A stretch of DNA of 40,682 nucleotides. It comes from Verrucomicrobiota bacterium (GTDB lineage Bacteria; Verrucomicrobiota; Verrucomicrobiia; Chthoniobacterales; UBA6821). Below are positions 27,327 to 33,579 of this stretch, one piece after another. The notes beneath the pieces were generated by a model that searched no databases, was not told the DNA's origin, and saw nothing but the letters and a program-made list of their open reading frames with translations. The position numbers were made by a program, and so were the translations under genes. How positions within the stretch are numbered: the stretch's first letter is position 1; every line of letters begins with the position of its first letter. The DNA is taken from positions 1 through 40,682 of the forward strand of contig WBXH01000004.1 of NCBI GenBank assembly GCA_008933015.1, in the 5' to 3' direction.

Positions 27327-28685
27327 ATGGCCGAACGCATCCTTTTTGGAACGGATGGAATCAGGGGTATTGCCAACCGCTACCCCGTGACGCCGGAGGT
27401 AGCCTTGAGGCTGGGAAGAGCCGTGGGATTTCTATTCAGTAAGGAGGGGCGAGAACGACCTTGTTTTGTGGTCGGTCGCGACACGCGCCTCTCGGGTGGC
27501 ATGCTGGAGGACGCATTGGTTGCCGGCCTCAATTCAGCTGGAGCTGACGCTCTGCTTGCTGGCGTATTGCCCACCCCGGGAGTGGCAACACTAGTCCGCG
27601 AACTTCATGCGCAGGGAGGCGTTGTCATCTCAGCCTCACATAATCCCGCCGAGGATAACGGACTCAAACTTTTTGGCGCAGATGGCTACAAGTTTGATGA
27701 TGTGGTGGAAGAGCGACTGGAGGCCCTGATCCTAACCTCCGAGATCGACGGATTACGCCCTCGTGGGGACGAAGTCGGAATCAAGCGCATAATCGCCGAT
27801 GCCTCTCAGCGCTATGGCGCTTGCGTGATGGCGGGTGTTCCCGGCATGGCCCTGCATGGCATGAAGATCGCGGTCGATTGCGCAAACGGAGCCTCGTTCA
27901 GAACAACCCCAGAAGTGCTGCAAAAACTAGGCGCTTCAGTGTTGGCATTCCACGATTCACCTAATGGACTCAATATCAACGATTCATGCGGCAGCACCCA
28001 TCCCGGAGAGATCGCCAGACTTGTCCTTGAAACCGGAGCGCAGGCTGGGATTTCTCATGATGGTGATGCCGACCGGTTAGTTCTCGTTGATGAAAAGGGG
28101 GGAGTTCTCGATGGTGATGAGATTCTTGCAATGACTGCCCTTGATGGGTTGAAACGCGGAACTCTTGCGGGAAAGACTTTGGTAGCCACCGTAATGAGTA
28201 ATTTCGGTCTCGATGAGTGCCTAGCTTCTGCTGGAGGCTCTGTACTGCGAACTGCCGTCGGTGACCGCTATGTGGTTGAGGCGATGAGAAAGGGCAACTT
28301 CTCGATCGGAGGGGAACAGAGCGGTCACCTGATCTTTCGTGATCATGGGACGACCGGCGACGGGTTGCTTGCCGCTCTTCAGGTTCTTCGGATCATGACT
28401 GAGAGTGGGAAGCAGCTCAGCGAGCTTCGCCTCTGTCTTAAAAAATATCCTCAGGCCCAGAGAAATCTGACCGTAAAGTTCAAGCCCTCTCTTGAGACGT
28501 TACCCGAGGTTTCGGCTCTTATCGCGAAAACGGAAAAATCTCTGGCAGGCAAGGGACGTGTTCTCCTGCGGTATTCCGGCACGGAACCCAAAGTAAGGCT
28601 TCTGATCGAGGGGCCTAACCAGATGATGATCAACGCCGCTGCTGATGCTATTGCTGCCGCCTTGAACAAGTCCATCGGGGGTTAG
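27327..28685 (+). CDS. glmM: Phosphoglucosamine mutase
   Basis: LFGTDGIRGIANRYPVTPEVALRLGRAVG, GGVVISASHNPAEDNGLKLFG, HDGDADRLVLVDEKG, RYSGTEPKVRLLIEG. Confidence 0.98.
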   Translation: MAERILFGTDGIRGIANRYPVTPEVALRLGRAVGFLFSKEGRERPCFVVGRDTRLSGGMLEDALVAGLNSAGADALLAGVLPTPGVATLVRELHAQGGVVISASHNPAEDNGLKLFGADGYKFDDVVEERLEALILTSEIDGLRPRGDEVGIKRIIADASQRYGACVMAGVPGMALHGMKIAVDCANGASFRTTPEVLQKLGASVLAFHDSPNGLNINDSCGSTHPGEIARLVLETGAQAGISHDGDADRLVLVDEKGGVLDGDEILAMTALDGLKRGTLAGKTLVATVMSNFGLDECLASAGGSVLRTAVGDRYVVEAMRKGNFSIGGEQSGHLIFRDHGTTGDGLLAALQVLRIMTESGKQLSELRLCLKKYPQAQRNLTVKFKPSLETLPEVSALIAKTEKSLAGKGRVLLRYSGTEPKVRLLIEGPNQMMINAAADAIAAALNKSIGG

Positions 28686-28754
28686 GGGGCGTAATATAGC
28701 CGCTTCTTACGCAAGGAGGGCTTCTTACCTTAAGCCTATGCCAAGGGCTCTATG

Positions 28755-30044
28755 TCAGAAGGGCCTGGTCACCCCTCGCGAGTGAACGACTTCCCCCTTA
28801 ACGAAGCGCTCGTGATTTTCTTCCACGCGATCTAGGTCATAGAGGTAGTTCACCATGATGCCCGCAGATTCTCGGAGTCCTTTCTTGGAGAGGTCTGCGG
28901 CCCAATTGAGGCGGTAGAGTTTGGCTCCGTTTCCAAGATGAAACTTAGCAACCGGATTCCCTCCCTTTTTTGAGGAACAGTGAATCAGGTACAAGGAGCA
29001 AAGAGCGGAGAGGGCCTCACATTCCTTTCGGTTTGCCTGCGTGGGCATCCATCCCTCGCCCAGACGTTGCGGCCATGCTTTCTCCTTAAGATTAAGAGCA
29101 CGTATGGCTTCCTCTATCCGCTCAACAAGCGCCGGAGTCTTAACCGAATTATCCAAAGGCGCTCCAGATGCCGCCCATTCCATAAATCCCGGGATGGGTG
29201 AGAGGGTGACAAAAGTTTTAAGTGCCGGAAATTCCGTTTTCAGTTGGGCCGCTACCCGTTTGATAAGGAAATTCCCGAGAGAAACGCTACGAAGTCCCGG
29301 TTCGCAGTTGCTGATGGAATAGAAGGCTGCAACTTTGAATTTTCCACTCTCCAAGGGAGCGGATTTTTTATCAACTAAGGGGCCTATTCGATCGGGTATT
29401 TCTGACAGTAGGGCGACTTCAACGAAAATAAGGGGTTCCTCGGGAAGTTGGGGGTGAAAGAAGGCGAAGCAGCGACGGTCGGGTTGTAGACGCCGACGGA
29501 GATCTTCCCACCCGTCGATTTCGTGGACGGCTTCCTGCTCGATGATTTTTTCGAGAATCTGGGCCGGAGATTGCCAGTCCACGCGGTGCATCTTGAGGAA
29601 CCCGGGATTAAACCAGGAAGTCAGAAGATGACGGAAATCCTGATCAACAGCGGCGAATTCGGGATGTTTATCGAGAAGTTTCAATAGGTTCCTCCGCATG
29701 GTGAGAACGGCACGGGTTCCCTCAGGAGCCCTATTAATACGACGAAGAAGCTCCTGACGGGGAGTTTCGGCAACCTTTGTCAAGGTGATCAGATTTAGGG
29801 CATTGGGGTCTTCCGCATAGGCCTGGGCGGCCTTGAGAACGGCCTCTGGTTCAGGATTAAACTCCAATGCTAGGGCTCGATAAAAATCAACGCGCTGGGT
29901 TTCTTCGAGTTCCTGAAACTGGTGCATGACCTCTAGTGCCATGCTTGTGCTATTGGATTCCCCTCTTTCTGAAATCAGCTTTTTGGCGGCAGTCACCGCC
30001 CGTGCCAACTGCTTGGAACCAGTGAATCGTTCGAAAAATGACAT
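28755..30044 (-). CDS. Malonyl-CoA decarboxylase
   Basis: LTSWFNPGFLKMHRVDWQSPAQILEKIIEQEAVHEIDGWEDLRRRLQPDRRCFAFFHPQLPEEPLIFVEVAL, FYSISNCEPGLRSVSLGNFLIKRV, FVTLSPIPGFMEWA; start trimmed from 30134. Confidence 0.95.
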   Translation of the reverse strand: MSFFERFTGSKQLARAVTAAKKLISERGESNSTSMALEVMHQFQELEETQRVDFYRALALEFNPEPEAVLKAAQAYAEDPNALNLITLTKVAETPRQELLRRINRAPEGTRAVLTMRRNLLKLLDKHPEFAAVDQDFRHLLTSWFNPGFLKMHRVDWQSPAQILEKIIEQEAVHEIDGWEDLRRRLQPDRRCFAFFHPQLPEEPLIFVEVALLSEIPDRIGPLVDKKSAPLESGKFKVAAFYSISNCEPGLRSVSLGNFLIKRVAAQLKTEFPALKTFVTLSPIPGFMEWAASGAPLDNSVKTPALVERIEEAIRALNLKEKAWPQRLGEGWMPTQANRKECEALSALCSLYLIHCSSKKGGNPVAKFHLGNGAKLYRLNWAADLSKKGLRESAGIMVNYLYDLDRVEENHERFVKGEVVHSRGVTRPF

Positions 30045-30193
30045 GGAGGAATGGTTGAAAGCTTTAGCCGAAATGTGGAGGAGTCTTTTCTCTTTGTCTA
30101 GCAAGCAAGCTCCGGATGATTTCTCTGCTTGCATGGGGCTTTATGCATAGAAATGCTTAGCAGGATCGTTTCGATATCTTCGCCAGCACCCCC

Positions 30194-31357
30194 ATGACTA
30201 ACCCCTCCCGCTCCTCCGGGCCTCTTGCCGGCATTGTCGTTCTCGATCTATCCCGAATCTTAGCTGGGCCCTATTGCACGCTTCTAATGGCTGAGATGGG
30301 GGCTCGTGTGATCAAGGTCGAGCCACCCAAAGGGGGCGATGATGCGCGCGCCTATGGTCCCTTCGTGAATGGGAAATCCGCCTACTTTGCCTCGATCAAC
30401 CGAGGCAAAGAGAGCATCGCACTCGATCTCAAAAATGATGCTGATCGGAAAATCTTGGAGGGGTTGCTCGAAAAGGCGGATGTCATCGTTGAAAATTTCC
30501 GGCCCGGAACGATGGAGCGACTGGGTTACGGGTGGGAAACTCTGCATGTGAAATACCCGAGACTGATCTATGCCGCAGCTTCGGGCTTTGGTCATACCGG
30601 TCCTAATTCGAAAGACCCCGCCTACGACATGGTGATGCAGGGTCTCGGTGGAATGATGAGCATCACGGGTCACGAGGGGGGCGATCCGGCCCGGGTTGGC
30701 ATGTCTATCGGGGATATCGGTGCCGGACTCTACACGGCGATTGCCGTGAATGCGGCGCTAGTTCATCGATTGACCACTGGTGAAGCCACCAAGGTGGACA
30801 TCGCCATGTTCGACTGTCAACTGGCACTCCTTGAAAATGCCATCATGCGGTACAACGTGGAGGGTGAGGTTCCCGGACCGCTTGGAGCAAGGCATCCGAC
30901 AATCACTCCTTTCCAAGCTTTCCGTGCTGCGGATGGACCGATCATCATTGCTGCCGGAAACGATGGTCTGTTCGTGAAGATGTGCGAGGCTCTTGCCTGT
31001 CCCGACATGGCGGCCAACCCCGACTATGCCACCAATGCGTGGAGGCTCAAAAATCTTCAACTCCTCCAGAAGGAGATCGGGGAGGTGCTGAAAACCAAAA
31101 GTGTTGCCGAATGGGTGACGATTCTGGCGGCAGCAGGTGTGCCGAGCGGTCCCATCAATTCTGTAGCGCAGGCAATCAAACACCCGCAGGTGAGTCCACG
31201 GAATATGCTCGTTGAGGTTCCTGATGGCAGTGGTGGGACGCTCAAACTGGTCGGTAATCCCCTTAAGATATCGGGATTTGAGGATCCGTCCACTCGCGCT
31301 CAGGCTCCTGATCTGGATGGGAATCGGAATGATATTCTCTCTTGGATCGGCGGCTAG
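30194..31357 (+). CDS. Class III (CaiB/BaiF family) CoA-transferase
   Basis: GPLAGIVVLDLSRILAGPYCTLLMAEMGARVIKVEPPKGGDDAR, INRGKESIALDLK, DVIVENFRPGTMERLGYGWE, ASGFGHTGPNSKDPAYDMVMQGLGGMMSITG. Confidence 0.96.
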   Translation: MTNPSRSSGPLAGIVVLDLSRILAGPYCTLLMAEMGARVIKVEPPKGGDDARAYGPFVNGKSAYFASINRGKESIALDLKNDADRKILEGLLEKADVIVENFRPGTMERLGYGWETLHVKYPRLIYAAASGFGHTGPNSKDPAYDMVMQGLGGMMSITGHEGGDPARVGMSIGDIGAGLYTAIAVNAALVHRLTTGEATKVDIAMFDCQLALLENAIMRYNVEGEVPGPLGARHPTITPFQAFRAADGPIIIAAGNDGLFVKMCEALACPDMAANPDYATNAWRLKNLQLLQKEIGEVLKTKSVAEWVTILAAAGVPSGPINSVAQAIKHPQVSPRNMLVEVPDGSGGTLKLVGNPLKISGFEDPSTRAQAPDLDGNRNDILSWIGG

Positions 31358-31395
31358 CGGTTAGTTTTCAGGATAAAAAAGCAACCCTTACCCCC

Positions 31396-31803
31396 ATGAT
31401 GATTTACGGCACGGCCCTTCTCGCCATCTGTACCCTGATCGGTATCTCCATCGGAGAAGAGCTTGGGTCATTCCTAGGCGTGAAGGCTAATGTCGGAGGA
31501 GTTGGCTTTGCCATGCTCCTGCTTATCCTAACGACGTCCTGGCTTATAAAAAGGGGCCGATTCAGACCACTCTCCGCCGAGGGCATCCAGTTTTGGAGCG
31601 GTATCTATATTCCAATTGTTGTTGCGATGTCTGCCAAGCAGAACGTCGTCGTTGCGATGAAGGGTGGTCCCGCCGCAATCGTTGCCGGTGTTTTGGGGGT
31701 GGGGATCAGCTTTGCCATGATTCCCTACGTCAACCGGATCGGAGCCCCCAAGGATGCGCTGCCTGCCAAGCTGGAGGAAGTCCCGACGGAGAATATGCGA
31801 TGA
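31396..31803 (+). CDS. madL: Malonate transporter subunit MadL
   Basis: MMIYGTALLAICTLIGISIGEELGSFLGVKANVGGVGFAMLLLILTTSWL; followed by madM; start trimmed from 31342. Confidence 0.88.
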   Translation: MMIYGTALLAICTLIGISIGEELGSFLGVKANVGGVGFAMLLLILTTSWLIKRGRFRPLSAEGIQFWSGIYIPIVVAMSAKQNVVVAMKGGPAAIVAGVLGVGISFAMIPYVNRIGAPKDALPAKLEEVPTENMR

Positions 31804-32564
31804 TTGAGTTGCTGCGACATACGATGGAAGCGAATGGCCTGCTTACGGCGTTCGTTGTTGTTGGCGTGATGATGTGGGTCTCCAACTGGATTTCCAAGAC
31901 TTTGACCGGCGGGCGATTGCATGGCTCGGCGATCGCCGTTTTCGGCGGTCTTATCCTGGCCTACGTTGGAGGGGTCACCACCGGCGGAAAAAACGGGATC
32001 ACGGACATTCCTTTTTTTGCTGGAATAGGCTTGATGGGTGGAGCGATGTTTCGGGATTTCGCTATCGTCGCTACAGCGTTTGGGGCCTCCTTTGAGGATC
32101 TCAAGCGATCCGGGGTTTCCGTGATGATCGCGCTTGCACTCGGCATCACCGTCTCATTTGTTAGCGGTGCTGGTGCGGCTTATGCCTTCGGTTACCATGA
32201 TGCGGTTACTCTTTGTACGATCGGTGCAGGTGCCGCCACCTATATTGTCGGTCCGGTAACGGGCACTGCACTGGGCGCTAGCTCTGAAGCAATAGCCTTG
32301 AGCATCGCTGCCGGGCTGGTGAAGGCAATCGTCGTGATGATTGCCACGCCCCACCTGGCTAAAAAACTTCAACTCAATAACCCTCATACCGCCATGGTCT
32401 ATGGTGGCATGATGGGAACCCATAGCGGGATTGCGGCCGGCCTGCAGGCGACCGATCCCAAGCTTATGCCCTACGGGCTGATGGCTGCAGCTTTCTACAC
32501 CGGGTTAGGCTGTCTGGTCTGCCCATCAATCTTTTATTTTATACTTCTACGGCTATTACCTTAG
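31800..32564 (+). CDS. madM: Malonate transporter subunit MadM
   Basis: NGLLTAFVVVGVMMWVSNWISKTLTGGRLHGSAIAVFGGLILAYVGG.., GLQATDPKLMPYGLMAAAFYTGLGCLVCPS; ATGA overlap with madL; start trimmed from 31593. Confidence 0.9.
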   Translation: MIELLRHTMEANGLLTAFVVVGVMMWVSNWISKTLTGGRLHGSAIAVFGGLILAYVGGVTTGGKNGITDIPFFAGIGLMGGAMFRDFAIVATAFGASFEDLKRSGVSVMIALALGITVSFVSGAGAAYAFGYHDAVTLCTIGAGAATYIVGPVTGTALGASSEAIALSIAAGLVKAIVVMIATPHLAKKLQLNNPHTAMVYGGMMGTHSGIAAGLQATDPKLMPYGLMAAAFYTGLGCLVCPSIFYFILLRLLP

Positions 32565-32607
32565 TAGTTTTAAGGAGATCGGCGCTCTCCGACGATTTTT
32601 CCCTGAT

Positions 32608-33579
32608 CTAGGAATGCCCGAATCCCGCTCGAATATTCCCGATCCACTCCGAAATCCAGATAATCACGGCTCGTGAGAATTCTATGAAATCAAACGTGTT
32701 TTTCACGAAGTCCTCCGCGAAGGAGTGCAGGGATATCTCCTTGCCGGTCACTAGCAGAAGACACGTGATGATACTAAGATTGATAAGATAGATCACCATC
32801 AGCGAGAAAAAGGTGCCTCCGTAGTGCAGGTCGGGTTGTCCCTTGATGATGAGCAGGAAGGTGAAGACGAGGTGGAATGCCATTGTGAGTCCAATGAGTA
32901 GGAAAAGAACCCAGCGGTAGGGACTCATGTCAGTTGCGATCGATGCCGCGCCGTATAGGGTAATGACCAGCAGGCTGTAGATTGGGAAAAAATAGGGGGC
33001 TAGCGCGATCCATGTATTGACCCTATCGGTGAGGACATGTCCACCCTCCATGCTGACATGAAAATGATCCGCCACAGTGCCGCCAAATAGTTTCACCCAC
33101 AGGGCATGGGTGACTTCATGCCCGAAGACGTAGGGAAGCATTAGCATGTTTCGTGGAATGATGAGATAAAAAACCCCGAAGAGGATAATTCCCCCTGCAA
33201 AACATCCAAAGGACTGGGAGGCCAAGAGACCATGTTTCACGGAGGTGGCGAAGGAATGGGAAAAAGTTCGGGTCATTACCCATGCGACGGGTGCGAGGAA
33301 GAGGGCGATAATGAACTTTACAAGCGACTTCGGCACCGTGGCGTGTGCCACGGTGGCGGCTGCGGAGCTTTCCGGAGATGTCTGTCGGGAAAATTCCGAT
33401 GGTACGCCTTCATCGCCGGAACTTTTTCCCGTAAAGAGTTCCCCGGTTTGGGGAGAGAGAGTCTCCACCCGGATTCGATTTTTTGAACGGGAGTTTTTAC
33501 CCGCGGCGGATGGCCCCTTGATTCCCAAGACGCCCTGGTCAGTTTGGCCCTTGTCCTTTTTCTGGGAAGGGCGGGCCAT
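32608..33579 (-). CDS. M50-like integral membrane metalloprotease homologue
   Basis: HExxH motif (YVFGHEVTHALWVKLFGG) within a multi-TM C-terminal half; disordered N-terminus. Confidence 0.65.
   Translation of the reverse strand: MARPSQKKDKGQTDQGVLGIKGPSAAGKNSRSKNRIRVETLSPQTGELFTGKSSGDEGVPSEFSRQTSPESSAAATVAHATVPKSLVKFIIALFLAPVAWVMTRTFSHSFATSVKHGLLASQSFGCFAGGIILFGVFYLIIPRNMLMLPYVFGHEVTHALWVKLFGGTVADHFHVSMEGGHVLTDRVNTWIALAPYFFPIYSLLVITLYGAASIATDMSPYRWVLFLLIGLTMAFHLVFTFLLIIKGQPDLHYGGTFFSLMVIYLINLSIITCLLLVTGKEISLHSFAEDFVKNTFDFIEFSRAVIIWISEWIGNIRAGFGHS

Follow-up and report, generated by a model that had tools for sequence, protein, structure and literature searches.

A contig of a Verrucomicrobiota bacterium raises the question of how imported malonate might be activated to malonyl-CoA where no ATP-dependent ligase for the task is found. 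The window analyzed here is the whole of this 40.7-kb contig (WBXH01000004.1), which belongs to a draft genome (G000) that totals 1.42 Mb over 114 contigs and is 84.7% complete. It carries a four-gene cassette in which a gene for malonyl-CoA decarboxylase (MCD) on the minus strand is divergent from a gene for a class III CoA-transferase (CoAT), followed on the plus strand by overlapping madL and madM, which encode the subunits of a malonate:Na+ symporter (Table 1). This arrangement, given in a preliminary description of the window, was confirmed by Pfam and NCBIfam matches, with corrections to the start coordinates. We think it probable that the cassette was gained as a unit and encodes a route in which MadLM would import malonate, the CoAT would form malonyl-CoA, with no need of an ATP-dependent ligase, by transferring CoA to malonate from another acyl-CoA, most likely acetyl-CoA but possibly succinyl-CoA, and MCD would decarboxylate malonyl-CoA to acetyl-CoA and CO2. 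With acetyl-CoA as the donor, acetyl-CoA would be regenerated and the net reaction would be malonate to acetate and CO2. Malonate as the CoAT substrate, the CoA donor and the direction of flux are what we infer from the sequence.

Pfam E values were 4e-93 for MCD, with MCD_N matched in addition, 7e-124 for CoA_transf_3, 4e-45 for MadL and 7e-112 for MadM. Both MCD domains are over their cut-offs, and the serine of TLSPIPGF and the histidine of FHLGNG are kept in comparison with the bacterial MCD structures 4ksf and 4ksa. MadL and MadM, which are adjacent, both score above NCBIfam equivalog cut-offs for the malonate symporter; the CoAT scores above no NCBIfam cut-off.

Probable gain of the cassette

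The locus was compared with 15 other genomes of the genus. A close CoAT (91% identity) was found only in G481, a genome that is 95% complete, and the gene order there is identical: glmM, MCD (90%), CoAT, madL, madM, a gene for a membrane protein with an HExxH motif, efp and kpsF. The G481 cassette lies on a 70-kb contig and is diverged in sequence. The junction could be read in 11 cassette-free congeners, and in 8 of these glmM and the HExxH gene are directly adjacent. Because G481 has the full order and the other congeners have a cassette-free junction, the four genes behave as one gained unit, gain being a simpler reading than repeated loss. Of 390 genomes of the phylum, 9 have MCD and 6 have MadM, and only G000 holds both. 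Since the two are this rare and occur together in one cassette at a mostly empty site, they are not chance neighbors. The junction itself, which lies between convergent genes, is a small hotspot for insertions; in G372, G454 and G465 (L167, L171 and L175) it holds other, unrelated open frames.

The carrier genes have a history of their own. MadL and MadM of G000 and G481 share 50% and 66% protein identity, compared with 84-99% for the flanking genes, and at the nucleotide level madL and madM are 56% and 64% identical, compared with 83-93% for the neighboring genes, MCD and CoAT. Identity breaks at the 3' end of the CoAT gene and recovers at the next gene after madM (window 31396-32564 and L147:5384-6591). 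In the MadM tree the two genomes are sisters (support 98/83) within a clade that includes G162, a genome of the same class (100/99), and they are separated by 0.9 changes per site for MadM, against 0.11 for the CoAT. These values suggest that madLM was replaced in place, or diverged unusually fast, while MCD and CoAT stayed. The retention of MCD and CoAT through this swap argues that the enzyme pair is kept together with a malonate carrier. The relatives also differ by lineage: those of the CoAT are in Pseudomonadota, as are, more weakly, those of MCD, and those of MadLM are in the window's own class, so that the cassette looks as if it was assembled from two sources.

Activating enzymes at other MadLM loci

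We surveyed 85 MadM loci, 80 from public genomes and 5 from the phylum. An AMP-binding, MatB-like ligase lies beside MadLM in 25 of them. In G162 (L011), which has the nearest MadM relative found (68%), the order is ligase-madL-madM, matching CoAT-madL-madM of the window; malonyl-CoA synthase is the best model for this ligase, below its cut-off (465 against 558). At the Bradyrhizobium jicamae locus (L075), MatB-MCD is divergent from MadLM and the ligase passes the malonyl-CoA synthase cut-off (833 against 558), which makes this the nearest architecture to that of the window, with MatB as the activating enzyme. Next to MadLM, the CoAT thus occupies the position taken at those 25 loci by a MatB-like ligase. 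In E. coli, MadLM has been shown to supply MatB with imported malonate (PMC12303837).

The preliminary description noted that MatB was missing from the neighborhood, and this now extends to the rest of the assembled genome: no MatB, the enzyme that defines the Mat pathway, was found in G000 (best match E 2e-18) or in G481 (2e-21). G000 yielded one AMP-binding gene, whose scores mark it as a long-chain acyl-CoA ligase; the one class III CoAT detected there is that of the cassette.

MCD is absent from 17 of the 21 MadLM genomes tested. Loci with a MatB-like ligase and MadLM in genomes without MCD are common across phyla (L010-L013, L029, L040, L054 and others), which suggests malonate scavenging for fatty acid synthesis.

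The CoA-transferase and its relatives

The CoAT matches PF02515 over its full length, and its catalytic Asp, in an SIGD motif, aligns with that of YfdE, placing it among the class III CoA-transferases. Among solved structures the closest match is YfdE of E. coli (4hl6, E 4e-110), about 46% identical. The best NCBIfam model is likewise the YfdE type (NF008511), at 407 bits, which is below the cut-off of 522 for an acetyl-CoA:oxalate CoA-transferase. An AlphaFold model made without an alignment had a predicted local distance difference test score of 35, too low to be of use.

When 399 Pseudomonadota genomes were searched with the window CoAT as query, two close relatives emerged (75% and 65%), followed by a tier at 50-56%; the next matches were at 46% and below. 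A penicillin amidase family gene lies beside CoATs closest to or near that of the window in three Pseudomonadota genomes (L221, L222 and L225). Among plasmid matches, the best annotated ones have no MCD or Mad neighbors, and an open-frame search of the two top records, which are barely annotated, found none either.

In G904 (1.2 Mb), a member of the 50-56% tier, DctP-DctQ-DctM is divergent from the CoAT and precedes MCD. We sampled 198 genomes of its order, Pseudomonadota with genomes of 1.0-1.5 Mb that resemble SAR11 in size only, here called the importer order. MCD was found in 44 of them, and at 37 of the 41 MCD loci that were read CoAT, DctPQM and MCD lie within a few kb of each other; of the four exceptions, three are cut off by a contig end and the fourth is G1117, where the CoAT is 15.6 kb away. 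MCD directly follows DctM in some loci and the dus and tauE genes in others; its position beside the same importer has changed and the association has stayed. Both CoAT and MCD are present in 43 genomes, MCD only in 1 (a contig-end case), CoAT only in 41 and neither in 113, with a Fisher p of 8e-19 that overstates the association, the genomes being related.

Twenty CoAT loci were read from genomes that lack an intact MCD, and at 19 of them the CoAT is beside the importer; for this reason the importer-order CoAT probably acts on the imported compound, MCD not being an obligatory partner. At these loci (L309-L328) the CoAT adjoins DctP and, contig permitting, DctQ and DctM, with MCD not nearby; L326, without the importer, is the exception. 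Weak MCD matches broken by stop codons occur in two CoAT-keeping genomes (G1053:C19:4374-4736 and G1060:C1:118312-118707), and are possibly decaying MCD genes. MatB is clearly excluded in several importer-order genomes (E about 1e-18 to 1e-22) and its exclusion is ambiguous in others that have ligases of 28-33% identity. In G741 (L229 and L237) ligase and CoAT share a cluster: the CoAT frame overlaps that of a ligase resembling MatB (57% to the B. jicamae enzyme), a gene for a TctC receptor is alongside, and MCD is a few kb off.

YfdE is an acetyl-CoA:oxalate CoA-transferase; neither succinate nor succinyl-CoA yielded a product with it, and a GNxH loop has been named as a likely specificity element (PMC3720670). 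This loop is GNRH in three YfdE-type sequences, GARH in the window, G481, G684 and G825, and GSRH in relatives linked to the importer and MCD. The window CoAT thus lacks the GNxH loop of YfdE, a change that would fit a different acid than oxalate. The CoAT tree groups the window clade with that of the importer order, but with weak support (83/45). The CoAT is linked to malonate genes in the window genus and the importer order, and unlinked in G684, G825 and G553.

Features of the locus

MCD probably starts at the ATG given in Table 1, because the G481 protein begins at the same ATG; the divergent gap is therefore about 149 bp. The CoAT, madL and madM genes form a tight run, with a 38-bp gap between CoAT and madL and an ATGA overlap of the madL stop and madM start. 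A promoter scan of the divergent region found no convincing promoter, the score not exceeding that of shuffled sequences, and stem-loop plus T-run sites in the region are no more numerous than in shuffles. The HExxH gene downstream encodes a membrane-protein-like product of 323 aa with an HEVTHALW motif and no Pfam match, and is fast-evolving across the genus (47-86% identity).

Table 1. Features of the malonate cassette in the window.
Feature	Position	Strand	Basis
Malonyl-CoA decarboxylase (MCD), 429 aa, probably from ATG 30044	28755..30044	-	PF05292 + PF17408; open frame reaches 30134
Divergent intergenic region, presumed shared regulatory region	30045..30193		Sequence
Class III CoA-transferase (CoAT), 387 aa, candidate malonate CoA-transferase	30194..31357	+	PF02515
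madL, malonate:Na+ symporter subunit	31396..31803	+	TIGR00807, 142.5 bits (cut-off 113.45)
madM, malonate:Na+ symporter subunit	31800..32564	+	TIGR00808, 352 bits (cut-off 236.3)
Possible intrinsic terminator directly after madM	32574..32590	+	Stem-loop + T run; weak
Extent of gained cassette	28686..32607		Between glmM (27327-28685, +) and HExxH membrane-protein gene (32608-33579, -)

Alternative explanations

Several observations weigh against malonate as the substrate of the CoAT and against the route built on it. Its closest relatives (tree support 100/98) adjoin a penicillin amidase gene, with no MCD and no malonate carrier near, and the altered loop is also present in G684, G825 and others without malonate neighbors. 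Of the 84 importer-order genomes with a CoAT, 41 have no MCD. A window-like CoAT was found at none of the 85 other MadLM loci, so that the conserved adjacency of MCD, CoAT and MadLM expected from the preliminary description extends to G481 and not to these. The MatB negative in the window genome rests on an incomplete assembly, and Mdc/Mad decarboxylase genes are absent from the direct flanks of the cassette, no genome-wide search for them having been made. The penicillin amidase beside the closest relatives speaks against a malonate-specific label for the CoAT branch as a whole; the proposal of a malonate-specific subfamily is weakened by these neighbors and by the genomes without MCD, and keeps the linkage seen in the window genus and the importer order. 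Activation of imported malonate by the CoAT, also proposed earlier, draws on the MatB slot, the adjacency in G481 and the independent clusters of CoAT, importer and MCD, with substrate and donor still a matter of inference.

A CoAT that activates another acid, oxalate or some other short dicarboxylate, beside an MCD and MadLM present for a loosely related purpose would accord with the oxalate enzyme as its closest characterized relative, with the penicillin amidase neighbors and with the half of importer-order CoATs that lack MCD. We nevertheless regard this as unlikely, given that the CoAT is in one run with madLM, that it and MCD were kept through the carrier swap, that CoAT, importer and MCD cluster independently elsewhere, that its loop is of the form G[AST]RH rather than GNxH, and that no MatB was found to convert imported malonate to the MCD substrate. 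Most MadLM genomes sampled and about half of the importer-order CoATs are without MCD, so import and activation without decarboxylation seems common, and the cassette could be thought to feed malonyl-CoA to fatty acid synthesis, with MCD merely an overflow valve; as MCD belongs to the gained unit and persists in G481, this is improbable here. Chance neighbors or an assembly artefact might be suspected in so fragmented a draft, a suspicion that is contradicted by the diverged copy of the same order in G481 and can be given almost no weight. The proposed route of import, CoA transfer and decarboxylation could also run on succinyl-CoA (malonate + succinyl-CoA to malonyl-CoA + succinate), the net product being acetyl-CoA, paid for with one succinyl-CoA bond. 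In the NCBIfam scores the YfdE model is followed by those for succinate-glutarate CoA-transferase (337 bits) and succinyl-CoA:mesaconate CoA-transferase (328 bits), and with a sole AMP-binding gene of long-chain type found in G000, no Acs for free acetate was seen, an argument limited by the incomplete genome and by AckA and Pta not having been searched for. Set against this, YfdE, the best match by model and structure, uses acetyl-CoA and not succinyl-CoA, and we consider the succinyl-CoA variant possible though doubtful.

Comparison with known malonate and oxalate systems

The cassette resembles the Mat pathway of Rhizobium (matA encoding MCD, matB malonyl-CoA synthetase, and matC) in its malonyl-CoA intermediate, its MCD and its dicarboxylate carrier, and differs in having a class III CoAT in place of MatB and MadLM instead of MatC. 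With the MatB-MadLM loci of G162 and B. jicamae it shares the carrier and the predicted activation of imported malonate; loci of that type use an ATP-dependent ligase, and most are without MCD, whereas the cassette would use a CoA-transferase. The Mdc/Mad decarboxylases of Pseudomonas and Malonomonas have the same net conversion of malonate to acetate and CO2 by a transferase step and decarboxylation, and MadLM is the Malonomonas carrier. Their malonate, however, rides on an acyl-carrier protein, whereas the cassette would use free CoA through a stand-alone CoA-transferase. The two-step logic is that of the oxalate system (YfdE/UctC or Frc with oxalyl-CoA decarboxylase), which also combines a class III CoAT, an acyl-CoA decarboxylase and a carrier; the cassette has MCD rather than Oxc, GARH rather than GNRH, and MadLM as the carrier.

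Acetate re-activation by Acs costs the same ATP as MatB. The ATP-saving cycle envisaged in the preliminary description is thus not general: a saving of ATP would require that acetate be excreted, or turned back into acetyl-CoA at a lower cost than that of malonate activation by MatB.

The reaction proposed for the CoAT is that of malonate CoA-transferase, EC 2.8.3.3. This activity has no KEGG function number and has been tied to malonate decarboxylase (PMC8307300). In the literature searched, we found no stand-alone class III gene for EC 2.8.3.3, no paper on a malonate route combining a CoAT with MCD, and none describing malonate use in the importer order. The predicted route would escape annotation, since the CoAT would be named at best an oxalate CoA-transferase and MatB is absent. 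The CoAT and MCD pair is present in about a fifth of the importer-order genomes sampled. On balance, we lean towards the view that a stand-alone class III malonate CoA-transferase with MCD may constitute a third, widespread bacterial malonate route besides Mat and Mdc/Mad, assembled independently with MadLM in this lineage and with DctPQM in small-genome Pseudomonadota. If so, EC 2.8.3.3, an activity that lacks a dedicated gene, would gain its own gene family and become testable with one purified enzyme.

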